From NCBI RefSeq assembly GCF_001507335.1, contig NZ_LMAH01000003.1, positions 434,001 to 498,000 of the forward strand: a stretch of DNA of 64,000 nucleotides. Reading direction: 5' to 3'. A model generated the notes under the pieces. It had not been told where the DNA came from. It ran no database searches and saw nothing but the letters and a program-made list of their open reading frames with translations. Both the position numbers and the translations under genes were made by a program. This document shows positions 39,956 to 53,547 of this stretch, in pieces (position 1 is the stretch's first letter; the number at the start of each line of letters is the position of its first letter). The stretch comes from Chryseobacterium sp. JAH. GTDB taxonomy: Bacteria > Bacteroidota > Bacteroidia > Flavobacteriales > Weeksellaceae.

Positions 39956-40198
39956 TTATGCGTCAAAATCAAAAAAGTCTTTTAGAGAAATCCCAATGAG
40001 ATTAGAAAATTTTGCTATTGTATAAATAGTCAATCCTCTTTTATTGTTTTTACTTTCCCAACGATTTAATATTTGCCTATCGATTTCAAATTTTTTAGCA
40101 AATTCAGATTGTGACAAACCAGTATTGGCTCTAAGAAATTTGATTCTATCAGCAATTTTATTTTTTAGTATTATATCTTCTTCGTTGAGTGCAGCCAT
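39956..40198 (-). CDS. Xre-family HTH regulator divergent to the sigma/dCas12f genes
   Basis: The ATG at 40198 gives 80 aa (MAALNEEDIILKNK...); a TTG at 40213 is possible but less likely. Residues ~14-70 form an HTH_3 domain (IADRIKFLRANTGLSQSEFAKKFEIDRQILNRWESKN). It ends in an acidic tail (FFDFDA). It is divergent from the structured RNA, sigma and dCas12f genes, and a perfect 15-bp inverted repeat lies 26 bp upstream of its start, overlapping the opposite promoter. It probably represses that transcript and itself; this is inference. Confidence 0.85.
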   Translation of the reverse strand: MAALNEEDIILKNKIADRIKFLRANTGLSQSEFAKKFEIDRQILNRWESKNNKRGLTIYTIAKFSNLIGISLKDFFDFDA

Positions 40199-40223
40199 AT
40201 CGCAATTTTGCAAAAAACCACAA

Positions 40224-40270
40224 CTTTATTGTAATCCACTTGGATTACAATAAAGAATCTTTTATATTTG
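40224..40270 (+). promoter_or_regulatory. Promoter and operator of the sigma/dCas12f locus
   Basis: The arms CTTTATTGTAATCCA (40224-40238) and TGGATTACAATAAAG (40241-40255) form a perfect inverted repeat with a 2-bp spacer. TTG at 40240-40242 and TATATTTG at 40263-40270, spaced 20 bp, form a consensus -33/-7 promoter, so the repeat covers the -33 box. Transcription would start near 40277 and read through the folded RNA into the sigma gene. The Xre protein encoded divergently is the obvious ligand. Confidence 0.75.
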
Positions 40271-40317
40271 CAAGTAATACAAGCAATTATTCCAATAAAA
40301 TTAAAATATTGAAGCTA

Positions 40318-40530
40318 TTGCTTAGATTCTCGACTGGAAAACTAGCACTTTTCAAAAAGCAACGAGTTGATAAGTATTGTGCCCACGACTTCGGTGTGGG
40401 CTCACTTATCGTTGCCCGGTATGCTAGTGCCTCCAGTCGGTAAGTTGAGTTCCACGCCTTTTCTTTTGGGCAAAATGAAGTGAGATAGTGTTTTAAATGG
40501 TGCAGAGAATTCATACGAAAATCTAAGCAG
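40318..40530 (+). ncRNA. Structured RNA, candidate guide/tracr-like RNA of dCas12f
   Basis: Nested helices can be drawn by eye. A closing stem TGCTTAGATT (40319-40328) pairs with AATCTAAGCA (40520-40529). Inside it CGACTGGA pairs with TCCAGTCG, ACTAGCA with TGCTAGT, GCAAC with GTTGC, GATAAGT with ACTTATC, and GCCCAC with GTGGGC, the last capped by an AC-TTCG-GT tetraloop. This is far more pairing than chance and lies in the 370-bp gap between promoter and sigma gene, where no ORF is credible. Size and position fit a Cas12f-type scaffold RNA. The guide segment is not identified. Confidence 0.65.
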
Positions 40531-40568: not shown

Positions 40569-41384
40569 ATGAAAAGAAATGCCGCTCTCCAACGGAAGCT
40601 AACCGATCTTCAGCTCTACCAACTGCTGAAAAAAGGTGACCCAAACTCCCTTAAACATATTCATTTACGCTACAAAAGACTTCTTTTCTGGCTCGGGAAA
40701 CAAATGCTTGAGGATGATTTTGTCGTGGACACTCTTGTGCAGGATGTCTTTCTCAAACTATGGCTAAACCGCAACGCCATTGAAACCCCGAATCATATTC
40801 TTGGTTTTTTACGGTTTGTTCTGAAAAGAGACTGTTTATCGTATTTCACTGCTCCGAAAAACAAATTTACCCGCTTAATGGCTTCCCTTGAAAGTTTTGA
40901 GAATTATCAGGATTATCTTGGAGGGTACGATCCCCTTCATGATCAGGAGCATCTCCTCAGTCAGGAATCCAATCAGAAAGATTTTGATGAAGTTCAAAAG
41001 ATTCTAAACGTACTGGATCCCAAAAGAAAACACCTGATCGAACTTTGCCTGAAATATGGCTTCCAGTACAAACCGATTGCAGAAGCCATGGGAAGCAGTG
41101 TGACAGCCATCAGCAATGAAGTGAGCAGAGCCATAGCTGATCTTCGGAAAATTCTTAAAGTAAATTCTTTTGATCATTCACAGCAAAAAGCTGTCGATAA
41201 AGAAGAGCAGTCAGAACAGCTCAGCAGTCAACAACTCGAGATTATGAAAATAAGGGTTGAACAGAAATCTTCTTTTGCCATTATTGCGAAGGAACTCAAA
41301 TTACCTGAGAAAGAGGTGCACCGTGAATTTCTGTATGCCTATCACTATCTACAAAATCAAAACACCTCTGAAATCACTCTTTGA
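40569..41384 (+). CDS. Sigma-70 family (ECF-like) factor linked to dCas12f
   Basis: The ATG at 40569 gives 271 aa (MKRNAALQRKLTDLQL). Region 2 is at about residues 10-90 (LKKGDPNSLKHIHLRYKRLLFWLGKQM, VQDVFLKLWLNRNAI, ILGFLRFVLKRDCLSYF) and region 4 at about 140-195 (VQKILNVLDPKRKHLIELCLKYGFQYKPIAEAMGSSVTAISNEVSRAI). Beyond a normal ECF sigma there is a ~75-residue C-terminal extension with a second HTH-like segment (EIMKIRVEQKSSFAIIAKELKLPEKEVHREF). The dCas12f gene starts 1 bp after its stop. It most likely redirects RNA polymerase to dCas12f-bound sites. No anti-sigma gene is adjacent. Confidence 0.88.
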   Translation: MKRNAALQRKLTDLQLYQLLKKGDPNSLKHIHLRYKRLLFWLGKQMLEDDFVVDTLVQDVFLKLWLNRNAIETPNHILGFLRFVLKRDCLSYFTAPKNKFTRLMASLESFENYQDYLGGYDPLHDQEHLLSQESNQKDFDEVQKILNVLDPKRKHLIELCLKYGFQYKPIAEAMGSSVTAISNEVSRAIADLRKILKVNSFDHSQQKAVDKEEQSEQLSSQQLEIMKIRVEQKSSFAIIAKELKLPEKEVHREFLYAYHYLQNQNTSEITL

Positions 41385-41385
41385 A

Positions 41386-42480
41386 ATGGAAAAACCTACG
41401 ATGACCCTGACCCGAAAAATTCAGTTGCTGGTCGATGTACCTGCGAATGAAAAAAACGGGATGTGGGAAAAACTCTACCGCTATCAGAACCGTTGCTTCA
41501 GGGCGGCTAATTTCATCGTTTCCCATCTGTATGTTCAGGAAATGATCAAGGATTTCTTTTACCTCACCGAAGAAATCCAATACAAACTAGCTGACGTAAA
41601 CAAAGATGAAATGGGAATATTCACCCGTTCGAAAACAAACACGACGGCACGCCTGGTCTTCGACCGTTTCAAAGGAGAGATCCCCACCGATATTCTGGGA
41701 AGTCTGAACAATACGATTCAATCCACCTTTTCTAAAAACAAAGCCGACTATTGGCAGGGAACAAAATCACTAAGGAACTTTAAAAAAGACATTCCCATTC
41801 CGCTTCCCGTTAAATGCATCAGCAAAATGAGATATGATTCTGAAAAGAAAGCGTTTTGCTTCAACATGTTCGCGATTCCGGTTAAAACGTATTTGGGTAA
41901 AGACTTTTCTGATAAGCGGCTGATCATGGAACGCCTTTTAAAAGAAGAGATCAAACTTTGCACCTCGCAGATCCAGCTGAAAGACGGGAAAATCTTCTGG
42001 CTTGCCGTATTTGAATTTGAAAAAGAAGAACACCTTTTAAAACCTGAAATCATCGCAGAAGCTTCCCTGTCTCTGGAACATCCCATCGTAGCAAAAGCCA
42101 ACCATGTGCTAATCACTATCGGTTCTAAAGAAGAATTTTTATACCGCAGGCTTGCAATTCAGGCAAGTCAGAAAAGGATTCAGGCGGGCATCGCCTATGC
42201 ACGTTCAGGAAACGGAGTCAAACGGAAACAAAAGGCACTTTTTAAAACAGAAAATATGGAAAGTCGTTATGTCAGTCATCGGCTTCACTTGTACAGCCGG
42301 AAACTTATCGATTTCTGCATCCAACAGCAAGCGGGAACTCTTATTCTTAAAAATCAGGAAGATAAAATAGGCATTGCCAAAGAACAGGAATTTGTGCTTC
42401 GCAACTGGAGTTATTATGAACTGCAGACCAAAATAAAATACAAAGCAGAAAAAGCAGGTATCGAATTAATTATCGGATAG
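41386..42480 (+). CDS. Nuclease-dead Cas12f/TnpB-like protein (dCas12f)
   Basis: The ATG at 41386, 1 bp after the sigma stop, gives 364 aa. From memory of Cas12f1, several blocks align: IQSTFSKNKADYW...KDIPIPLPVK (111-143), YRRLAIQASQKR (253-264), YSRKLIDFCIQQQAGTLILKNQED (303-326) and FVLRNWSYYELQTKIKYKA followed by EKAGIELI (336-362). The RuvC-I Asp is replaced by Ser227 (EASLSLEHPIV), the RuvC-II Glu by Lys322 (LILKNQE), and the protein ends before the zinc finger and RuvC-III Asp. It should bind RNA and DNA but not cut. Codon use is more GC-rich than most of the element. No TnpA and no IS605 ends are seen. Confidence 0.82.
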   Translation: MEKPTMTLTRKIQLLVDVPANEKNGMWEKLYRYQNRCFRAANFIVSHLYVQEMIKDFFYLTEEIQYKLADVNKDEMGIFTRSKTNTTARLVFDRFKGEIPTDILGSLNNTIQSTFSKNKADYWQGTKSLRNFKKDIPIPLPVKCISKMRYDSEKKAFCFNMFAIPVKTYLGKDFSDKRLIMERLLKEEIKLCTSQIQLKDGKIFWLAVFEFEKEEHLLKPEIIAEASLSLEHPIVAKANHVLITIGSKEEFLYRRLAIQASQKRIQAGIAYARSGNGVKRKQKALFKTENMESRYVSHRLHLYSRKLIDFCIQQQAGTLILKNQEDKIGIAKEQEFVLRNWSYYELQTKIKYKAEKAGIELIIG

Positions 42481-42487
42481 CTTAAAA

Positions 42488-42576
42488 AAAACGAGGGTGC
42501 TTGTACACCCGTAGGGTGAGGTCTTGAACACTCACTAAATACTTAAGTGTATATACAACGGCGTGGGCTCTTTTTT
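42488..42576 (+). other. Possible RNA 3' of dCas12f
   Basis: After the dCas12f stop come two small hairpins (GGGTG...CACCC at 42494-42509; GTGAG...CTCAC at 42516-42535), then ...GTATATACAACGGCGTGGGCTC and eight T. CGGCGTGGGCTC differs by one base from a 12-nt string inside the upstream folded RNA, and GGCGTGG is complementary to CCACGCC at 40452-40458. It could be a crRNA-like partner with terminator, or simply the operon terminator region. The rest of 42577-42725 holds nothing recognised. Confidence 0.4.
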
Positions 42577-42725
42577 TTAACTTAAAAGATGAATGCCAAG
42601 ATCAAATAAATTACTAATGCTGAAAAGAAGAAAAGAAATAAATGGATAACCATTTTTCAGAATTCCGTTGGATGAAAGATGATGGATTGGTAAGAGTTAT
42701 CATTTCAATACTATAATACTCTTAT

Positions 42726-43319
42726 CTATCTGCTTTCATAACCATCTTTAAACCTTAAAAACTTTTCTGCATCTTTTGGATTCTTTTTCATCCACCTGTT
42801 CATTAGTTCAGTATTATAGTAAAGCTGATTATAGTCAACCACTCGATAAAGGGATTGACCGTTATTTTTAATTTCGTCCAGAATATCCTGCCTGATTTCA
42901 GTTTTACTGCGAAGGCTCTCGGTGTACCACTGCTTTGCAAAAAAAACATTTCCAATTGTTGTTAAAACCGAAAGTAGCAGAGCTCCAATTATTCCGTAAG
43001 TAGCAGTCTTGAAGAGTGGTGATTTTTTTTCCACCTGCTCCAGCTGCCCGACTGCTTTTTCTGAAAGGTGCGCCTCGATAGTCTTGGGGATTGCCAGTAG
43101 AAAGTCTTGTCTTTTTTGTTCTTCTACTTCCAGCATTCTAGATGATTTGTCAAGAGTGGCATTCAGATTAATCAAAGATTGCTCTATTTTCTGATCCATG
43201 TGTATAATATCTTCACGAGAATTCATGAGCATAATATAATGTTCAATAGTGGCTTCATTGGTTTCAATTACCTTCTTGAGTAGTGCTACGCCATCAGGCT
43301 GCTTGTTTTCGTTATCCAT
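42726..43319 (-). CDS. Mobilization-operon membrane protein
   Basis: The 197-aa protein has a long helical/coiled N-terminal part (residues ~15-95), one transmembrane helix near residues 107-128 (TATYGIIGALLLSVLTTIGNVFF) and a charged C-terminal domain with YRVVDYNQLYYN. It follows the relaxase gene by 2 bp on the same strand. Such proteins are common after relaxase genes in Bacteroidota mobilizable elements; their function is not established, and linking the relaxosome to the membrane is a guess. Confidence 0.65.
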   Translation of the reverse strand: MDNENKQPDGVALLKKVIETNEATIEHYIMLMNSREDIIHMDQKIEQSLINLNATLDKSSRMLEVEEQKRQDFLLAIPKTIEAHLSEKAVGQLEQVEKKSPLFKTATYGIIGALLLSVLTTIGNVFFAKQWYTESLRSKTEIRQDILDEIKNNGQSLYRVVDYNQLYYNTELMNRWMKKNPKDAEKFLRFKDGYESR

Positions 43320-43321
43320 TT

Positions 43322-44260
43322 TTATCTAAATTTTCGTTTTTTCTTTTTTAGCAAATCATCATCTTGTGCTGCAGTGAAAGTTGGCTTCAGTAATGCCTTT
43401 GCCATATTTTCAAGCTGATTGCTAACCGAGGATGAATTTTTCTGTTCGTTTAAATACGTATTTATATTAACATTTTCACTTACACCAACTTGAATATTCT
43501 TTGAACCGAAATCCCCTGCTCTTTCTTGATTTTCCTGTAATTTTTGCTTGATGTCTGTAACCCTTAACGTACTGGTGATTTCAGAGAGCTTATAACCCGG
43601 CTTATAATCGCGCTCGGTCTGATGATTGATGTCTTCAAATCTTACGATTCGCATCCCAGAGATTCCTACTTTTTCATTTTGATAGAGTGTTATACGGTAA
43701 CCTGACTTTTTCATAAAATCAATAAGCTCGGCAAAGTTTCTGGAAATTTTAAGAGAAGCCATCAACGCTTCAAGCATTATTTTTTTCTTTTCCTTGCCAA
43801 TCTCAATATCTGTCTTCAGATTCAATTCCTTACAAACTTCACGAACTGCCTTGCCGAAGTTCTCACCGATTTTGTGAGCTTTTATTGTATTAACACCATG
43901 AATGTCAACCCTATTTACAATGAAGTGAATGTGCTTTTGCTTCGTTGATGCATGAATATCCAAAATCATCTGGTTGTTATCGGTAACCCCGATCTTTTTT
44001 AAAGCTTTCAGTGCGAGCTGTGCGAGTTCGTCGTTGGACAGTTTATCTCCAATGGATTTTTCAGGAGATATATATCCGGTGAGTGCCCATTTTTTAACAT
44101 TTTTGTTTCTGTCGGCAACGGTTTTCATTTCTTTAAATTGGTGTTCCGGATCTTCGCTTAACAGGTTATTTTGATAAATCCTCAAAGCAGTTCCTTGATC
44201 ATTTCCATTATATTCGACGGCAATCTTCGAGATGTTTCTGGTCGTTGCGCTGTTATTCAT
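43322..44260 (-). CDS. Relaxase/mobilization nuclease
   Basis: The 312-aa protein has a relaxase core with the metal-binding His motif in DIHASTKQKHIHFIVNRVD (His110 and His112) and an upstream KKWALTGYISPE segment with the probable catalytic Tyr63. It would nick at oriT and pilot the strand during transfer. The C-terminal ~80 residues are Gln/Asn/Lys-rich linker. It lies 13 bp downstream of the MobC-like gene and 2 bp upstream of the membrane protein gene. Confidence 0.85.
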   Translation of the reverse strand: MNNSATTRNISKIAVEYNGNDQGTALRIYQNNLLSEDPEHQFKEMKTVADRNKNVKKWALTGYISPEKSIGDKLSNDELAQLALKALKKIGVTDNNQMILDIHASTKQKHIHFIVNRVDIHGVNTIKAHKIGENFGKAVREVCKELNLKTDIEIGKEKKKIMLEALMASLKISRNFAELIDFMKKSGYRITLYQNEKVGISGMRIVRFEDINHQTERDYKPGYKLSEITSTLRVTDIKQKLQENQERAGDFGSKNIQVGVSENVNINTYLNEQKNSSSVSNQLENMAKALLKPTFTAAQDDDLLKKKKRKFR

Positions 44261-44273
44261 TTTTAGATTTCAG

Positions 44274-44753
44274 TTAAGTGGGTTTCTGTCTGTTTTGTTT
44301 CTCATACAGATAATGATAGATTAGGTTGGTTACGATTTCAATTTCGTGAAGGATCTGCTTCTTATTTTCAAATTCAGAGAATTCGCGATGCCTCAATAAA
44401 TTTTTGATTCTGATGAAATGATTTCCATATTGTAACAGCACTTCATCAGTTTTAAATTCATTTATTTTAAGTTCTTTTTCCATGTAAACCATTCTCGCAT
44501 AAGTGGATAATTTGAGATTAAGTTTTTGAGCAGTTTTTTGGTTTTCATCATACTCAGAATCCGTCACCCGAAAAGAAATTATTTTGCTTAAATGGTTATT
44601 GTTTTTCTTTTTCAAACCACCTTTTCTGCCGAGCTCCTGAAAGTGCTTTTTTTTCTTTTCGCCATCAAGTTTCTTTTCATTTTCCTCGACGGCTTTTGTG
44701 ATAAACTCCTGTAAGAAATCTTTTTCCATTGTCTTTATATTAGTGTGTTTCAA
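44274..44753 (-). CDS. MobC-like relaxosome protein
   Basis: The 159-aa protein has a basic, charged N-terminus (EEKKLDGEKKKKHFQELGRKGGLKKK), a ribbon-helix-helix-like segment (SKIISFRVTDSEYDENQKTAQKLNLKLSTYARMVY) and a helical C-terminus, matching MobC/MbpA-type accessory proteins that help the relaxase open oriT. An internal Met at 44729 is an alternative start. The 216-bp non-coding gap upstream is the natural place for oriT. Confidence 0.8.
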   Translation of the reverse strand: MKHTNIKTMEKDFLQEFITKAVEENEKKLDGEKKKKHFQELGRKGGLKKKNNNHLSKIISFRVTDSEYDENQKTAQKLNLKLSTYARMVYMEKELKINEFKTDEVLLQYGNHFIRIKNLLRHREFSEFENKKQILHEIEIVTNLIYHYLYEKQNRQKPT

Positions 44754-44969
44754 AGCATTTCTGACGATAGGAAGAAATCAAAAATCCCAATTTTGCAATC
44801 AGCGGTTACGCTTATTGTAAACTTTGGGTACTTTTTGCACTAACTGTCTACCGTATTTTTTTACAATATCATTTTAATGTGACCTACTACTATCTTACTA
44901 AGGTTCATAGCTACTGTTATTTTACGTAGCTTTTCAGATGACCTTGTATTATTTTATGCAGATACATTC
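44754..44969. other. Candidate oriT region
   Basis: This 216-bp non-coding gap upstream of the mobC-relaxase operon contains short inverted repeats, for example AGCTAC / GTAGCT at about 44910-44932, and a direct TGCAATCAGCGGTTACGC segment. Position is the main argument; no nic consensus is recognised. Confidence 0.35.
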
Positions 44970-45845
44970 TTATCTCTTTAATCGATACGCTACTTTTATA
45001 CCCGTATTTTTATTGATTAGCCATTCATTCAAATCTTTAAAATCTGAATATAAAACCCGACAGTCTTCTGCGTTTTTACTTTCATTTTTAATCATTTCTA
45101 CAGCACGGTTTCCTGACACATCATTATCAAAATAGAGCTCGATATTTTCATAATGATCTAGTGATTTTTTAATATTGGAAATCATCGACACGGAATTTAA
45201 AATGATGTAATCTGAAGGTTTTTTTTCTAAAGATTTTTCTACATTTTTAAAGGAAAGAAAATCAAAAAAGCCTTCGAAAATTCTTAGTGATTTTGAATCA
45301 TTTTTGATCGTAGAAATATCTTTTTTACCCAAACAAATTTTTGAATATTTACTTCGAATTTCGTAACCTCCGGAATCGTTTTTAAAGCCAATTCCGAAAT
45401 AATTCTTATCGTTCATTTTGTAGTGAATCTCTTTTAAGAGCTCATTTTGATTTTCTACTTTCCGACTCTTTAAGTATTCCAAAAGTGCAGAATGAACGAT
45501 CTCTTTTTCATCAAGTATCTTGTAATTTTTTGTTTTATTTTCAAAATTCTGGTTGGAAATATTTTGCTTTTGAAAAGAAGAAAAATTCTGATCTTCTGCC
45601 CAGGCTAAAATTTCGCTTGTACTCTTATTCAGATATTTTTTCAACAAGCTTACGTTGTTTCCTCCAATACCTTCTGAAAAAAGATACCAGCAGTTTAAAC
45701 TTTTATTGATTTTAAAAGAGGGTTGGGATTCGATGGCAAAAGGGTTGAGATACCAAGCTTCTTTTTCATTTTGTTTCGTAGGAAGGTGTCCGAGAGAAAG
45801 GAGGACTTCTTCCAACGATATGCTGTTGAATTGTTTGCAGTTCAT
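44970..45845 (-). CDS. Toprim-domain primase-like protein
   Basis: The 291-aa protein has an N-terminal part like a DnaG zinc-binding region but without the Cys/His ligands (AWYLNPFAIESQPSFKINKSLNCWYLFSEGIGGN), then a Toprim fold: LRIFEGFFDFLSF (Glu motif), DYIILNSVSMISNI, and IELYFDNDVSGNRAVEM (Asp-x-Asp motif). Such proteins are typical of Bacteroidota mobilizable elements and probably act in plasmid-like replication with the primase-helicase encoded upstream on the same strand. Confidence 0.83.
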   Translation of the reverse strand: MNCKQFNSISLEEVLLSLGHLPTKQNEKEAWYLNPFAIESQPSFKINKSLNCWYLFSEGIGGNNVSLLKKYLNKSTSEILAWAEDQNFSSFQKQNISNQNFENKTKNYKILDEKEIVHSALLEYLKSRKVENQNELLKEIHYKMNDKNYFGIGFKNDSGGYEIRSKYSKICLGKKDISTIKNDSKSLRIFEGFFDFLSFKNVEKSLEKKPSDYIILNSVSMISNIKKSLDHYENIELYFDNDVSGNRAVEMIKNESKNAEDCRVLYSDFKDLNEWLINKNTGIKVAYRLKR

Positions 45846-45933
45846 TTTATAATTTTTATTGTTTTTAGTAATAAATAAGAGATTTGTGGGTAGTTCAAAC
45901 GGGCGGGTTTAGTTTATACTAATTTTTGATGAA

Positions 45934-46123
45934 TTGATGAGGAAACTATATAATTAATTGAATGATAATATTTTAAACCCTCATCAATGTCTCATCATCT
46001 CATCAAAGTAGAAATATTCTTCTCATCAGTTTCTCATCAAAAAATCAAGGATTTAAAATTTGATGAGGCTTTTGATGAGCTGTAACTAATTGATTTTATT
46101 TTCATTATCTACTAACTCATCAT
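45934..46123. repeat. Cluster of CTCATCAA iteron-like repeats, candidate replication origin
   Basis: Nine copies of CTCATCAN or its complement lie within 190 bp: forward at 45980, 45991, 45999, 46022, 46033 and 46116, reverse (TTGATGAG) at 45934, 46060 and 46072. They occupy the gap between the Toprim and primase-helicase genes and extend into the 3' end of the latter. The dense, oriented repeats in an AT-rich gap next to replication genes suggest a replication origin for the excised element. Confidence 0.6.
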
Positions 46124-47350
46124 TTTATCAAATTTTTGAATAATAAAATTCCTTTCTACTGTAAAATACCGCCCTGTTTTATTCTGTGGGTAAAAGCTTC
46201 CGCTATAATCTAGATCGTATTTGATGTAAGCCAATGAATTGTTTTGAGGTTCGAGTTTCCAGTTTTCTTTCAGTATTTTCCGGACATCATTGACTGTCCA
46301 GTATTGTTTGCTGAACATCTTACCAAGCATATTGAAAATATCCTGAGGAATACAATGGATCTTGCTTTCTTCGGTACTTTCGAAAAACTCATATAAAAGT
46401 TCGATAATCTTAGATTCCAGTTTATTGTTGTTTTTCCAAACCAATTTCTGAAGGGCTTTTGTTCTAATTTGGGAATCAGTAAACCACATTCTTGTCTCCT
46501 TACGGCTGTGAAAAGGTCTTTGGATTAGGTAACGGAGGAAATAGGGAATCTCCTTGTTTAGATTGTGTAGAAATTCAGTGTTCTCGCTTTTGATTGATCT
46601 CACTTTAATAATCCAGAATCGGATCTCATTTTCATCAATCTGAATGAAGTTATCTTCATTATTGGAACAGAGAATAAATTTTCCAAAGAATTCCACCTCT
46701 TCACGGTCTTTTCCTTTTGCCTCCTTCTTATCTTTATCAGTCGTTGAAAGATATTTTAACCGTTCCGTGATCTCTTTTTTGTCAAAGAATACTTCGTCAA
46801 TAGCAACTACAAGCATCGAAGTCCAATCTGAATTAAATTGACTGCTGAATGAGTCACCTTTGATATAGGTCATATTTAATCCAAAGATGGATTTTAGCCA
46901 TTTGATGAAAGTGGATTTTCCGGTAGATCTTTCCTTACTTACCAAACAAAGGATCGGAAGTATCTGTGTTGGATATTCAAGCAATATCTTTATGTAATCT
47001 AAACCTAGTTCTAATTGTTCTCCGAAAACATGTTCCATAAATTTAAGTGAGAATGGAATTTTGTTTAGTAAATCTTCAGAACTAATATTTTCTTCGATTG
47101 GTTGATAAGGAATCTCATTATAAATATTGTAGAATCCGTCAACGATCTGCTCATAATTCAGATGAGAAGGAATACAGCAGAAGCCATCATACTTTGAAAC
47201 TTTTGAAACGTAGTTTTTTCCGTGGTCGCTAATAATAGTTTCACGATTCCATCGTACCAAAATTGAGATCTTGTCTCCGGAGATTAATGGTTTTTCAATC
47301 GTTTTATAGTACGTTGTTCCTACTCGTAGATAAGGAATTTTTTCGCTCAT
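46112..47350 (-). CDS. Primase-helicase (DUF5906/SF3-type ATPase)
   Basis: The 412-aa protein has a P-loop (CLVSKERSTGKSTFIKWL, residues 136-152), a Walker B-like MLVVAIDEVFFD near 184, and a sensor EFFGKFILCSNNEDNFIQID, which is the layout of phage/plasmid P4-type SF3 helicases (DUF5906). The C-terminal ~100 residues look like a winged-helix part. It probably unwinds the element origin during replication or transfer. It is upstream of the iteron cluster and the Toprim gene on the same strand. Confidence 0.83.
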   Translation of the reverse strand: MSEKIPYLRVGTTYYKTIEKPLISGDKISILVRWNRETIISDHGKNYVSKVSKYDGFCCIPSHLNYEQIVDGFYNIYNEIPYQPIEENISSEDLLNKIPFSLKFMEHVFGEQLELGLDYIKILLEYPTQILPILCLVSKERSTGKSTFIKWLKSIFGLNMTYIKGDSFSSQFNSDWTSMLVVAIDEVFFDKKEITERLKYLSTTDKDKKEAKGKDREEVEFFGKFILCSNNEDNFIQIDENEIRFWIIKVRSIKSENTEFLHNLNKEIPYFLRYLIQRPFHSRKETRMWFTDSQIRTKALQKLVWKNNNKLESKIIELLYEFFESTEESKIHCIPQDIFNMLGKMFSKQYWTVNDVRKILKENWKLEPQNNSLAYIKYDLDYSGSFYPQNKTGRYFTVERNFIIQKFDKMMS

Positions 47351-47434
47351 TTTAAAAAGGATTTGGTTCCGTACTGAAATACGGATAGGTTAAACAAAAG
47401 GAAGAATGCAACTTTTAATGAGAATAAGTCACAC

Positions 47435-47710
47435 TTATTTTCTTCGGTTTCTTCCGTATTCTAAGAGTTCTTTTTTGGAATAGTAATAGCGACCGCTAAA
47501 ATTGTAGTAGGGTAGACTTTTGTTTTTTCTCCAATCAATAATGGTTGGAATAGAAACGTGCAGGAATTTCGCAGCTTCAATCTGTGGGATAAGGTCTTCC
47601 GGTTGTTGCTCTGCTTTTGCGGGTAATGTGAATTCGGTTGCTTTCCTAAGAATGATTTCAACCGCTTTTTCCAAATCTCCTTTGGAATGGGAATAGAGTT
47701 GTAATGACAT
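47435..47710 (-). CDS. Excisionase-like helix-turn-helix protein
   Basis: The 91-aa protein has a MerR/excisionase-type winged helix (PEDLIPQIEAAKFLHVSIPTIIDWRKNKSLPYYNFSGRYYYSKKELLEY), the usual small DNA-bending protein next to integrase in Bacteroidota elements. It probably helps excision and regulates the primase-helicase operon. Two tandem 19-bp repeats lie 3 bp upstream of its start codon. Confidence 0.82.
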   Translation of the reverse strand: MSLQLYSHSKGDLEKAVEIILRKATEFTLPAKAEQQPEDLIPQIEAAKFLHVSIPTIIDWRKNKSLPYYNFSGRYYYSKKELLEYGRNRRK

Positions 47711-47713
47711 TTG

Positions 47714-47751
47714 ATTGTATTTTAAATTAGTTATTGTACTTTAAATTAGTT
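47714..47751 (-). repeat. Tandem 19-bp direct repeats upstream of the excisionase gene
   Basis: Two adjacent copies of ATTGTAYTTTAAATTAGTT (47714-47732, 47733-47751; one difference) abut the excisionase start. They may be binding sites for the excisionase or a repressor. Further looser repeats (TCTAATGTAATTCA, TCAATGTAAATCA) occur near 47818 and 47867. Nothing else is seen in 47752-48026. Confidence 0.5.
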
Positions 47752-48026
47752 TAAATTTAAATGCAATAATATCAATTTAACCGCTGTTAATCAAATGGTT
47801 ATATGTCGTCCGGATTAATCTAATGTAATTCAGACTAGCCTAAATTTTATTTTTTTTAATCCAGATCAATGTAAATCATTCCAAATTAGACTTTTGAATA
47901 AAGTTAATTTTTTAACTAAATTTAACTAAAAAATGCTTATTTTAATATAGTTTAACAACTCTTTTGTATAATTCAGAAATAAAAATCATTGTAGATTATT
48001 TAATATAAATAAAGTCATAGCGAAAA

Positions 48027-49256
48027 TCATCCCCACGCTTTGTCCATTTGTTCGTCTGTGAATGCTTCTGTTACTTTCATATACTTATCCAAAACAGCAT
48101 CTTTCTTTATATTGGCAATTTTTTTTATTGCTTTTGGCTCCATTCCCAACAATAAAGAATTTGTAATGAATGTTTTTCTTGCTGTATGGCTTGTTATGAA
48201 TTTACATTTGGGTTGTGTGAGTGATTTTTTCTTATTACCCACAAACCAATGAGTTGTGAATGGTTGTTTGATTTCTGCTAATTCACAACAATCTTTGATG
48301 TATTCATTGAATTTTTGAGAAGAGATAACGGGTAGGGGTTCATAGATAGTTCCTTTGTATTTTTCTAAAATAGCTTTTGCGTATTTGTTCAGCCTGATGG
48401 CGTGATTCTGTGTTTTAGTTTTCTGAATAGAAAGAACTATATGGTCTTCAGAAATATTTGCTAAATGTAGTTTTGAAAGATCAGAAAACCGTAAGCCTGT
48501 GAAACATCCCATACAATAGAAATCCCGAACGTGAGACAGTCGATCGCTGTCAAAATCTTTTTCGTATAATTTCATCAACTCTTCAAATGTTAAATACACA
48601 ATATCAATGTCGTGTTCAACAGCTCTAAATTTCTCGAACTCCCTGTTTGCATTATATCCTTTTTCTGTTGCCCAGTTTAAAAATGACTTTAAAACCTTGA
48701 TTACTTTAGCGAAATAATTTTGCTTCATCTTTTTTATTTCGTAAGAGTAATCTCTTAATGATTCAAAAAAATCTTCATCAACCTTATCAAAAGAAAGTGA
48801 AATTCCATTTTCCTTACAAAAGAATTCCAGATAGTTTTTTACAGTAGTTTGACCCGTGATGGTGTTCGGAGTTTTTATCAATTTTCCTTTGTCAATGTAT
48901 TGTGTAAAGCATTTGAAAAAGTCGAATTCACTGGTTGTTTCAACTTTTTCATTTGAATCAAACTTTTCAATAAACAAATCCTTTGTTGGTTCAAGCTTAT
49001 TTGCTCTGAAATAAAGCGAAATGTCTTGAATTTTGGTTTCTATCTGTTGGAGTTTTTCATTTATTTCGTCATAGCCATAATAAGTATCTTTTTTTGAATT
49101 AGCTTTCACTCGATTGTTCTGCCAATCGTTTAATTTACAATTCAATCCAGTATTTCTTTTTATTATAGAGCTGTCAATTCTGAATAATATCCTAATTGGC
49201 ATTAAACCGTCTTGACTTACTTTGTCCTTTCTTAATTCAAAATTGTACTTTATCAT
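48027..49256 (-). CDS. Tyrosine-type site-specific integrase
   Basis: The 409-aa protein has a Bacteroidota arm-DNA-binding N-terminal domain (YNFELRKDKVSQDGLMPIRILFR), a SAM-like core-binding domain (~110-210) and a catalytic domain with Arg256 (CFTGLRFSDL), Lys near 279-281 (QKTKT), His357 and Arg360 (SHTARKTF) and Tyr392 (AVLDKYMKV). The catalytic set is complete. It sits next to the right end of the element and is the enzyme for integration at tRNA-Leu(TAA). Confidence 0.92.
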   Translation of the reverse strand: MIKYNFELRKDKVSQDGLMPIRILFRIDSSIIKRNTGLNCKLNDWQNNRVKANSKKDTYYGYDEINEKLQQIETKIQDISLYFRANKLEPTKDLFIEKFDSNEKVETTSEFDFFKCFTQYIDKGKLIKTPNTITGQTTVKNYLEFFCKENGISLSFDKVDEDFFESLRDYSYEIKKMKQNYFAKVIKVLKSFLNWATEKGYNANREFEKFRAVEHDIDIVYLTFEELMKLYEKDFDSDRLSHVRDFYCMGCFTGLRFSDLSKLHLANISEDHIVLSIQKTKTQNHAIRLNKYAKAILEKYKGTIYEPLPVISSQKFNEYIKDCCELAEIKQPFTTHWFVGNKKKSLTQPKCKFITSHTARKTFITNSLLLGMEPKAIKKIANIKKDAVLDKYMKVTEAFTDEQMDKAWG

Positions 49257-53478: not shown

Positions 53479-53547
53479 AAATATACCGGCGGAATCCGAA
53501 AAGCCGTACAAAGAGTAGGAAAAAACTGATTAAAACACCAAATAATC

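Follow-up and report, generated by a model that had tools for sequence, protein, structure and literature searches.

The sigma-dCas12f gene pair and its surroundings

The window analysed here is a stretch of 64,000 nucleotides from Chryseobacterium sp. JAH, with positions counted from its first letter. It contains a sigma factor gene followed by a gene for a nuclease-dead Cas12f protein (dCas12f), preceded by a structured leader and followed by a predicted guide RNA. The features of the locus are the following:

39956-40213, minus strand: small XRE-like HTH gene in divergent orientation to the leader, likely a local repressor (Pfam HTH_3, 2.2e-8)
40231-40248, no strand assigned: palindrome GTAATCCACTTGGATTAC in the sequence, a possible operator of the HTH protein
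40263-40270, plus strand: TATATTTG box, likely a Bacteroidota -7 promoter element (conservation)
40305-40470, plus strand: structured leader (alignment A3, covariation), with an outer helix pairing 40333-40337 with 40433-40437
40381-40401, plus strand: apical hairpin GCCCACG-ACTTCGG-TGTGGGC (sequence pattern, A3 consensus structure)
40394-40410, plus strand: likely guide target GTGTGGGCTCACTTATC, with a G before it at 40393; its second base mismatches the guide
40569-41384, plus strand: sigmaE, an RpoE-like ECF factor with an additional helical part at its C terminus (ORF; Pfam, NCBIfam and PDB matches)
41386-42480, plus strand: dCas12f (ORF, PDB sequence and fold matches, homologue alignment)
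42493-42559, plus strand: scaffold of the predicted guide RNA (93.1 bits with covariance model R1, which was built with this sequence included)
42560-42578, plus strand: predicted guide GGCGTGGGCTC, then a run of T (sequence, conservation)
42726-49256, minus strand: hypothetical protein, MobA relaxase, NikA-like protein, Toprim primase, DUF5906, HTH_17 and tyrosine integrase (Pfam)

The sigma ORF encodes 271 amino acids and ends with a TGA stop codon at 41382-41384, separated by one base from the ATG of dCas12f at 41386, whose ORF encodes 364 amino acids and stops at 42480. This is the arrangement given in a preliminary description of the window, in which a sigma gene is followed after 1 bp by a Cas12f-like protein of 364 residues. 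The sigma protein matches Sigma70_r4_2 in Pfam (6.5e-9), with region 2 slightly below its cut-off, and the sigma70-ECF model of NCBIfam (60.2 bits, cut-off 42.9). Its residues ~220-266 form the extra helical part past the usual ECF regions, most of which is covered by the match to chain C of PDB 9n9q. The dCas12f protein scored under the cut-offs of both Pfam Cas12f1-like_TNB (14.3 bits) and NCBIfam guided_TnpB (56.1 bits).

Searches against the PDB matched dCas12f to the 'Nuclease-deactivated Cas12f' of 9n9c with 539 bits and to Al3Cas12f (9nzo) with 136 bits, and sigma to the RNA-guided transcription complex 9n9q with 266 bits. Fold alignments to the solved dCas12f and sigmaE gave 53% and 46% identity, respectively; the Cas12f fold is present, and by sequence and fold both proteins are full-length homologues of members of the solved complex. 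AlphaFold models of both proteins were of middling confidence, and the claim is therefore carried by the sequence matches. The homology to the solved complex bears out the earlier reading of the locus as a dCas12f-sigmaE system and, judged by these matches, the gene pair belongs to an already known family.

In the alignment to 9nzo, Ser227 of dCas12f replaces the RuvC-I Asp and Lys322 replaces the RuvC-II Glu, as had been proposed. The match stops at query residue 361, corresponding to residue 414 of the 506 residues of 9nzo, so the zinc finger and RuvC-III, which we take to lie past residue 414 of 9nzo, are absent from dCas12f; the preliminary description had likewise let the protein end before these motifs. 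The RuvC residues are not kept among homologues either, with Ser227 found in 17 of 18 aligned dCas12f proteins and Glu at position 322 in none of the 18. The dCas12f of genome G352 (locus L104) retains Asp at the RuvC-I position and has lost the Glu. An active TnpB/Cas12f nuclease was ruled out, since the RuvC triad is not intact (Ser227, Lys322, missing C terminus). Type V-F CRISPR-Cas was also rejected, as no CRISPR array was seen near dCas12f: of the 34 direct-repeat families in window positions 30000-60000, the 20 largest included none that was regularly spaced with at least three copies. The protein thus has the same fold as Al3Cas12f (9nzo) and AsCas12f (8dzj), but differs from them in its replaced catalytic Asp and Glu, its missing C-terminal part and the lack of a CRISPR array seen nearby.

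A protein search with dCas12f found 833 relatives, the best 120 of which are 85-93% identical along almost their entire length. Scanning genomes yielded 52 dCas12f loci, mostly from Chryseobacterium and close genera (Weeksellaceae), with two from Leeuwenhoekiella (Flavobacteriaceae) and one from Mesonia. The sigma gene lies directly upstream of dCas12f in 50 of the 52 loci; the other two are L046, whose DNA begins at dCas12f, and L055, a remnant. Within the genus, 25 of 98 genomes have a dCas12f match, 24 of them clear at E<1e-20, the doubtful match of G018 (E 6.9e-4, stops inside) being left out of the 24. Class-wide, dCas12f was detected at E<=1e-20 in 6 of 395 genomes, including the source genome, which also carries another dCas12f copy on C5 (88%) and a fragment of the gene on C7.

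Genes for a relaxase (MobA), a NikA-like protein, Toprim primase, DUF5906, HTH_17 and a tyrosine integrase span 43322-49256. The same relaxase is present in the fetched flank of 5 of the 52 relatives, and a related Toprim protein is found near 16 of 52. The locus had been placed on a mobilizable island, and mobilization genes do adjoin the pair; the island ends were not found, direct repeats in window positions 30000-60000 giving only low-complexity or diverged pairs. The GC content of the pair is 40-41% as against 29-37% around it, in agreement with the richer composition noted earlier. The pair could plausibly be transferred. Close relatives on plasmids or phages were ruled out for the two collections searched, whose four plasmid and two phage records with a match all show less than 60% identity. 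Further downstream, at 53486-53521, the window contains the Rfam DUF805b RNA, a cis-regulatory element.

The predicted guide RNA downstream of dCas12f

A conserved RNA begins at 42493, 12 bases past the dCas12f stop codon, and reads GAGGGTGCTTGTACACCC...ACTCACTAAATACT..GTATATACAAC, followed by GGCGTGGG(C/T) and a run of T. An alignment of the scaffold (n = 55) showed three helices with compensatory change in 6 of 17 pairs, and its covariation is weak (-0.46 of -14.91 kcal/mol). The covariance model matched 24 of the 98 genus genomes, which on comparison by eye are the same 24 that have a clear dCas12f. Adjacent to dCas12f there is a predicted guide RNA with a conserved scaffold. In G176, no guide RNA was recognisable. 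The model has four matches in the source genome, among them one with the C7 remnant and an orphan copy on C5. At the start of contig C7 (L003, 687-916), a dCas12f remnant still has its guide RNA intact, carrying the usual guide, and guide RNA copies without dCas12f are found at C5:9496 and, as a half copy, at C11:4602.

The guide starts with GGCGTGGG in 54 of 62 parsed guide RNAs (row L112 of this set duplicates L002). The same start was found in 27 of 29 guide RNAs parsed from the loci of the model search, the other two having one change each; there, 32 of 34 matches were examined, 3 were unparsed and the loci partly overlap the 62-row set. The guide GGCGTGGGCTC is near-invariant in Weeksellaceae relatives. 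In each of two loci, L013 and L022, three guide RNAs stand in tandem, and GGCGTGGG is present only in the last of them. The other guides of these tandems differ, and a GGGGCGG guide is common to both loci. The parsing pattern missed the second guide RNA of L013 and possibly others.

Remnants of the system do exist, namely the C7 fragment with its intact guide RNA and the apparently broken dCas12f copies of G040 and G024. That the pair as a whole is a decaying, functionless remnant of a TnpB/Cas12f element is nevertheless highly improbable, given the two intact copies in the source genome, the high identity of the best 120 of 833 relatives over nearly the whole length, and the near-invariant guide.

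The leader element and its match to the guides

The leader of the window is located ~175 bp upstream of the sigma gene, and across loci the hairpin lies 170-190 bp before the sigma start. An alignment of 81 unique leaders (A3) gave 24 pairs in four helices, with 99.5% of cells pairing versus 92.2% in shuffled alignments. Cells changed on both sides numbered 136 versus 32 after shuffling, and the covariation score was 0.235 versus 0.087, with none of 500 shuffles as high. The outer helix showed double changes in all five of its pairs and no break. Because the paired positions came from an RNAalifold consensus of the same alignment, the structure leans to these sequences, and the apical helix 4 was built into the leader search pattern, leaving only helices 1-3 as independent evidence. 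Alignment pairs 99-102/107-110, 142-144/156-158, 174/200, 182/188 and 183/187 were left out of the count. Another alignment, A6, misaligns the variable third helix and therefore gave a different, poor RNAalifold consensus, so that the pair counts were based on A3. Scored separately on 75 of the 81 leaders (6 unparsed), the variable helix reaches 5 bp or more in 61, compared with 28.5% of 5000 mismatched arms. Neither the leader nor the guide RNA matched Rfam at or above the gathering score, with chance matches only below it, which rules out a known Rfam RNA as the identity of either. The leader is a structured element with strong covariation that is uncatalogued in Rfam.

Every base of the TATATTTG box is kept in at least 90% of the 81 leaders, and the box resembles what we take to be the consensus of the Bacteroidota -7 element. 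In 32 of 34 leaders, a divergent minus-strand ORF (at least 70 aa) has its start 184-212 bp upstream of the hairpin, its HTH identity at the other leaders being judged by eye. Beyond the HTH gene, the region 0.5-1.5 kb upstream of the hairpin (L071-L100) holds differing genes at most leaders, some of them ATPase-, SIR2-like- or KAP-like by eye, and the leader may mark a hotspot of cargo exchange.

The guide recurs on the same strand ~2.08 kb before the end of dCas12f, within CYCACGACNNNGGCGTGGGYTC(A/T/G)CTTATC, where it matches one arm of the leader hairpin. Variants of this arm read GGCGTGGG, GGCGTGAG and GGTGTGGG. A G precedes GCGTGGG in all 36 guide-leader pairs (34 loci), and contiguous identity extends over 7-11 bases in 26 pairs, 5 bases in six and 0-1 bases in four, the last being the window, L049 and two extra L022 guides. 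The window's own leader offers a likely genomic target with a 5'-G upstream of a gene, with one mismatch in the guide seed, at the second base. The hairpin occurs in four copies in the source genome, with zero matches to the reversed control: one before sigma (GGTGTGGGC, one mismatch) and three with GGCGTGGGT. Since these three match the first eight bases of the guides exactly and the window's own leader has its one mismatch, the leaders elsewhere would be the likelier targets. With ~8-11 matched bases before the T run, the guides of this clade are short, which makes their specificity uncertain.

Guides of more distant relatives point to the same hairpin arm. G410, whose dCas12f is 66% identical, has the guide GCGTGGGCTCTCTTATT and two leaders, its own sigma leader and one before a TonB-receptor-like gene, both reading GCGTGGGCTCACTTATT. 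A search of its whole genome (4.1 Mb, at most 3 mismatches) returned only the guide RNA itself, the two leaders (1 mismatch each) and one site with 3 mismatches. In Mesonia (59%), the guide is GCGTGGGTTCTCTTATCT; a single leader was found, which precedes a TonB-receptor-like gene and has the sequence GCGTGGGCTCTCTTATCT. The guide of G397 (41%), GGCTCGCTTATCGTG, corresponds to the same arm shifted by five bases and is identical to leaders from other genomes along 13-14 bases. The single leader of G397 itself has 4 mismatches in 16, other sites of that genome being equal or better; genome-wide, this guide has many sites at 2-3 mismatches, and its own leader is not among them.

Guides were also compared with 14 of the 81 unique leaders, using 200 shuffled guides as a control. 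The best matches of the G410, Mesonia and G397 guides were 16, 15 and 14 of 16 bases, and that of the window guide was 14 of 16, values reached by none of the 200 shuffles in each case. The guide of the C5 copy matched 13 of 16 at best (4 of 200 shuffles as high), and for the L046 guide 5 of 200 shuffles were as high. Against these 14 leaders, the guides of G352 and L049 (Leeuwenhoekiella) and the extra guides of L013 and L022 did no better than shuffles. Thus, some guides serve other targets than the leader.

The guide-like end could instead act on RNA, as an antisense attenuator pairing with the leader transcript at its tail (CCACGCC, then a T run), with no DNA targeting. The covarying pairs in the leader agree with such a role, and in many copies the tail is by eye complementary to GGCGTGG, allowing G-U. 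The longer guides of G410 and Mesonia, however, continue via CTCTCTTAT or TTCTCTTAT, which agrees with the hairpin arm but not with the tail, and the guide of G397 begins inside the arm. The G before the match in 36 of 36 pairs and the solution of a homologue bound to DNA (9n9m) also count against the antisense explanation, which we consider unlikely.

Leader-bearing operons and the proposed mode of action

The leader was found in 76 of the 98 genus genomes, with 0 control matches. It is present in 23 of the 24 genomes with dCas12f and in 53 of the 74 without it, the latter arguing that the leader has a function of its own. In 21 of the 24 dCas12f genomes it occurs away from the dCas12f operon (not in G011, G064 and G074), G030 being included by count only, as its leader places were not listed. 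Class-wide, the strict leader pattern was detected in 7 of 395 genomes. An intact leader before sigma was recognised by pattern in 31 of 52 loci, and 19 of the 50 relatives with sigma have none; by eye, ~9 of these leaders are decayed (L052 slightly) and 10 are absent. The second dCas12f copy of the source genome has also lost most of its leader. In 17 of the 19 loci without an intact leader (exceptions, L013 and L051), the first RNA after dCas12f keeps the GGCGTGGG guide, which suggests that the guide is maintained by targets at other sites.

One of the leaders elsewhere in the source genome lies ~530 bp before a gene for TonB-dependent SusC, followed by SusD and an S9 peptidase; the other two reach contig ends within 300 bp. 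For downstream genes, 49 leaders were examined, 4 of which have no downstream ORF of 140 aa in range. From the remaining 45 first ORFs, 4 sigmaE genes, 4 with doubtful upstream starts and 1 duplicate were dropped. The 36 leaders kept, all outside sigmaE-dCas12f operons, are followed first by genes for TonB Plug proteins (19), thioredoxin-like proteins (5), a sigma factor (1) and proteins without a Pfam match (11).

The differing HTH and other genes upstream of leaders would also suit a single-strand DNA recombination site that moves cassettes, and hairpins with covarying outer stems would fit a folded DNA site as well. The likeness of guide and leader would then be due to descent or chance, with no regulatory role. 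This explanation is very unlikely, as a promoter-like box precedes the leader almost invariantly, the genes downstream are arranged as in operons and the same hairpin arm is matched by different guides.

The dCas12f-sigmaE pair and its predicted guide RNA probably bring RNA polymerase to the hairpin leaders of their own operon and of the SusC-SusD operon, and the pair would likely switch on leader-borne nutrient-uptake genes. In this mechanism, dCas12f would load the RNA encoded downstream of it, find G-GCGTGGG in leader DNA and open the DNA at the hairpin arm. The partner sigmaE would then initiate near the leader 3' end, presumably a few tens of bases past the arm. In a 2025 preprint on dCas12f-sigmaE, the Sternberg group reportedly describes a 5'-G motif, a start site set by distance from the R-loop and promoter independence. 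The new transcript would start past the promoter, which is probably repressed by the HTH protein, and past the folded leader, so that guided transcription would escape both forms of control. Loci with an intact sigma leader could plausibly activate themselves, but this does not hold throughout, as the leader is decayed or gone in 19 loci.

TldR repressors are linked to fliC or oppF. Like TldR, dCas12f is a nuclease-dead TnpB relative that would serve as an RNA-guided regulator. Unlike TldR, it is paired with a sigma factor and is closest to the dCas12f family, and activation rather than repression would be expected. Should dCas12f and its RNA act as a TldR-like repressor of leader operons, sigma would work alone on ordinary promoters. 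A complex bound at the target could act as a block, since the target lies downstream of the promoter box TATATTTG, and nuclease-dead TnpB relatives are known as repressors (PMC13418256). Even so, the sigma gene stays adjacent in 50 of 52 loci and the closest solved sigma relative sits in an RNA-guided transcription complex, making repression quite unlikely.

The solved dCas12f-sigmaE complex is represented by PDB entries 9n9c, 9n9m, 9n9o and 9n9q, of which 9n9c, 9n9m and 9n9q were released in December 2025; 9n9c and 9n9m contain dCas12f-gRNA (9n9m with DNA) and 9n9q is an 'RNA-guided transcription complex'. The window resembles this system in the full-length homology of both proteins, the loss of RuvC residues and the gRNA-like RNA after the gene. 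In contrast to the solved entries, the guide here is short, near-invariant in Weeksellaceae and matched to a structured leader shared by operons. The guide-leader regulon may be new when set against the dCas12f-sigmaE work represented by these PDB entries. RNA-guided sigma transcription is a very recent addition to gene regulation, with its natural control targets as a main question, and here a guide, a target element and candidate operons can be named in cultivable Bacteroidota.

A wider reading, which we put forward tentatively as somewhat short of probable, is that dCas12f-sigmaE with its one near-unchanging guide is the master activator of a dispersed, leader-defined regulon. Its members would include the pair's own operon, SusC-SusD-peptidase operons and thioredoxin-like genes. 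Since most leader-bearing genus genomes lack dCas12f (53 of 76), the pair would also be a plug-in activator that genomes gain, at times near mobilization genes, and that takes over existing operons at once. If this is true, one RNA programmes a regulon as a classical sigma factor does via its promoter, with an address that is written in RNA and can be acquired.

Among the genes downstream of leaders, a family of ~173-190 aa without a Pfam match (MKKIRTDF...METFFQLNDL) is the first gene after ten leaders (L072, L075, L077, L078, L085, L086, L099, L100, L116 and L117), its members being alike by eye.
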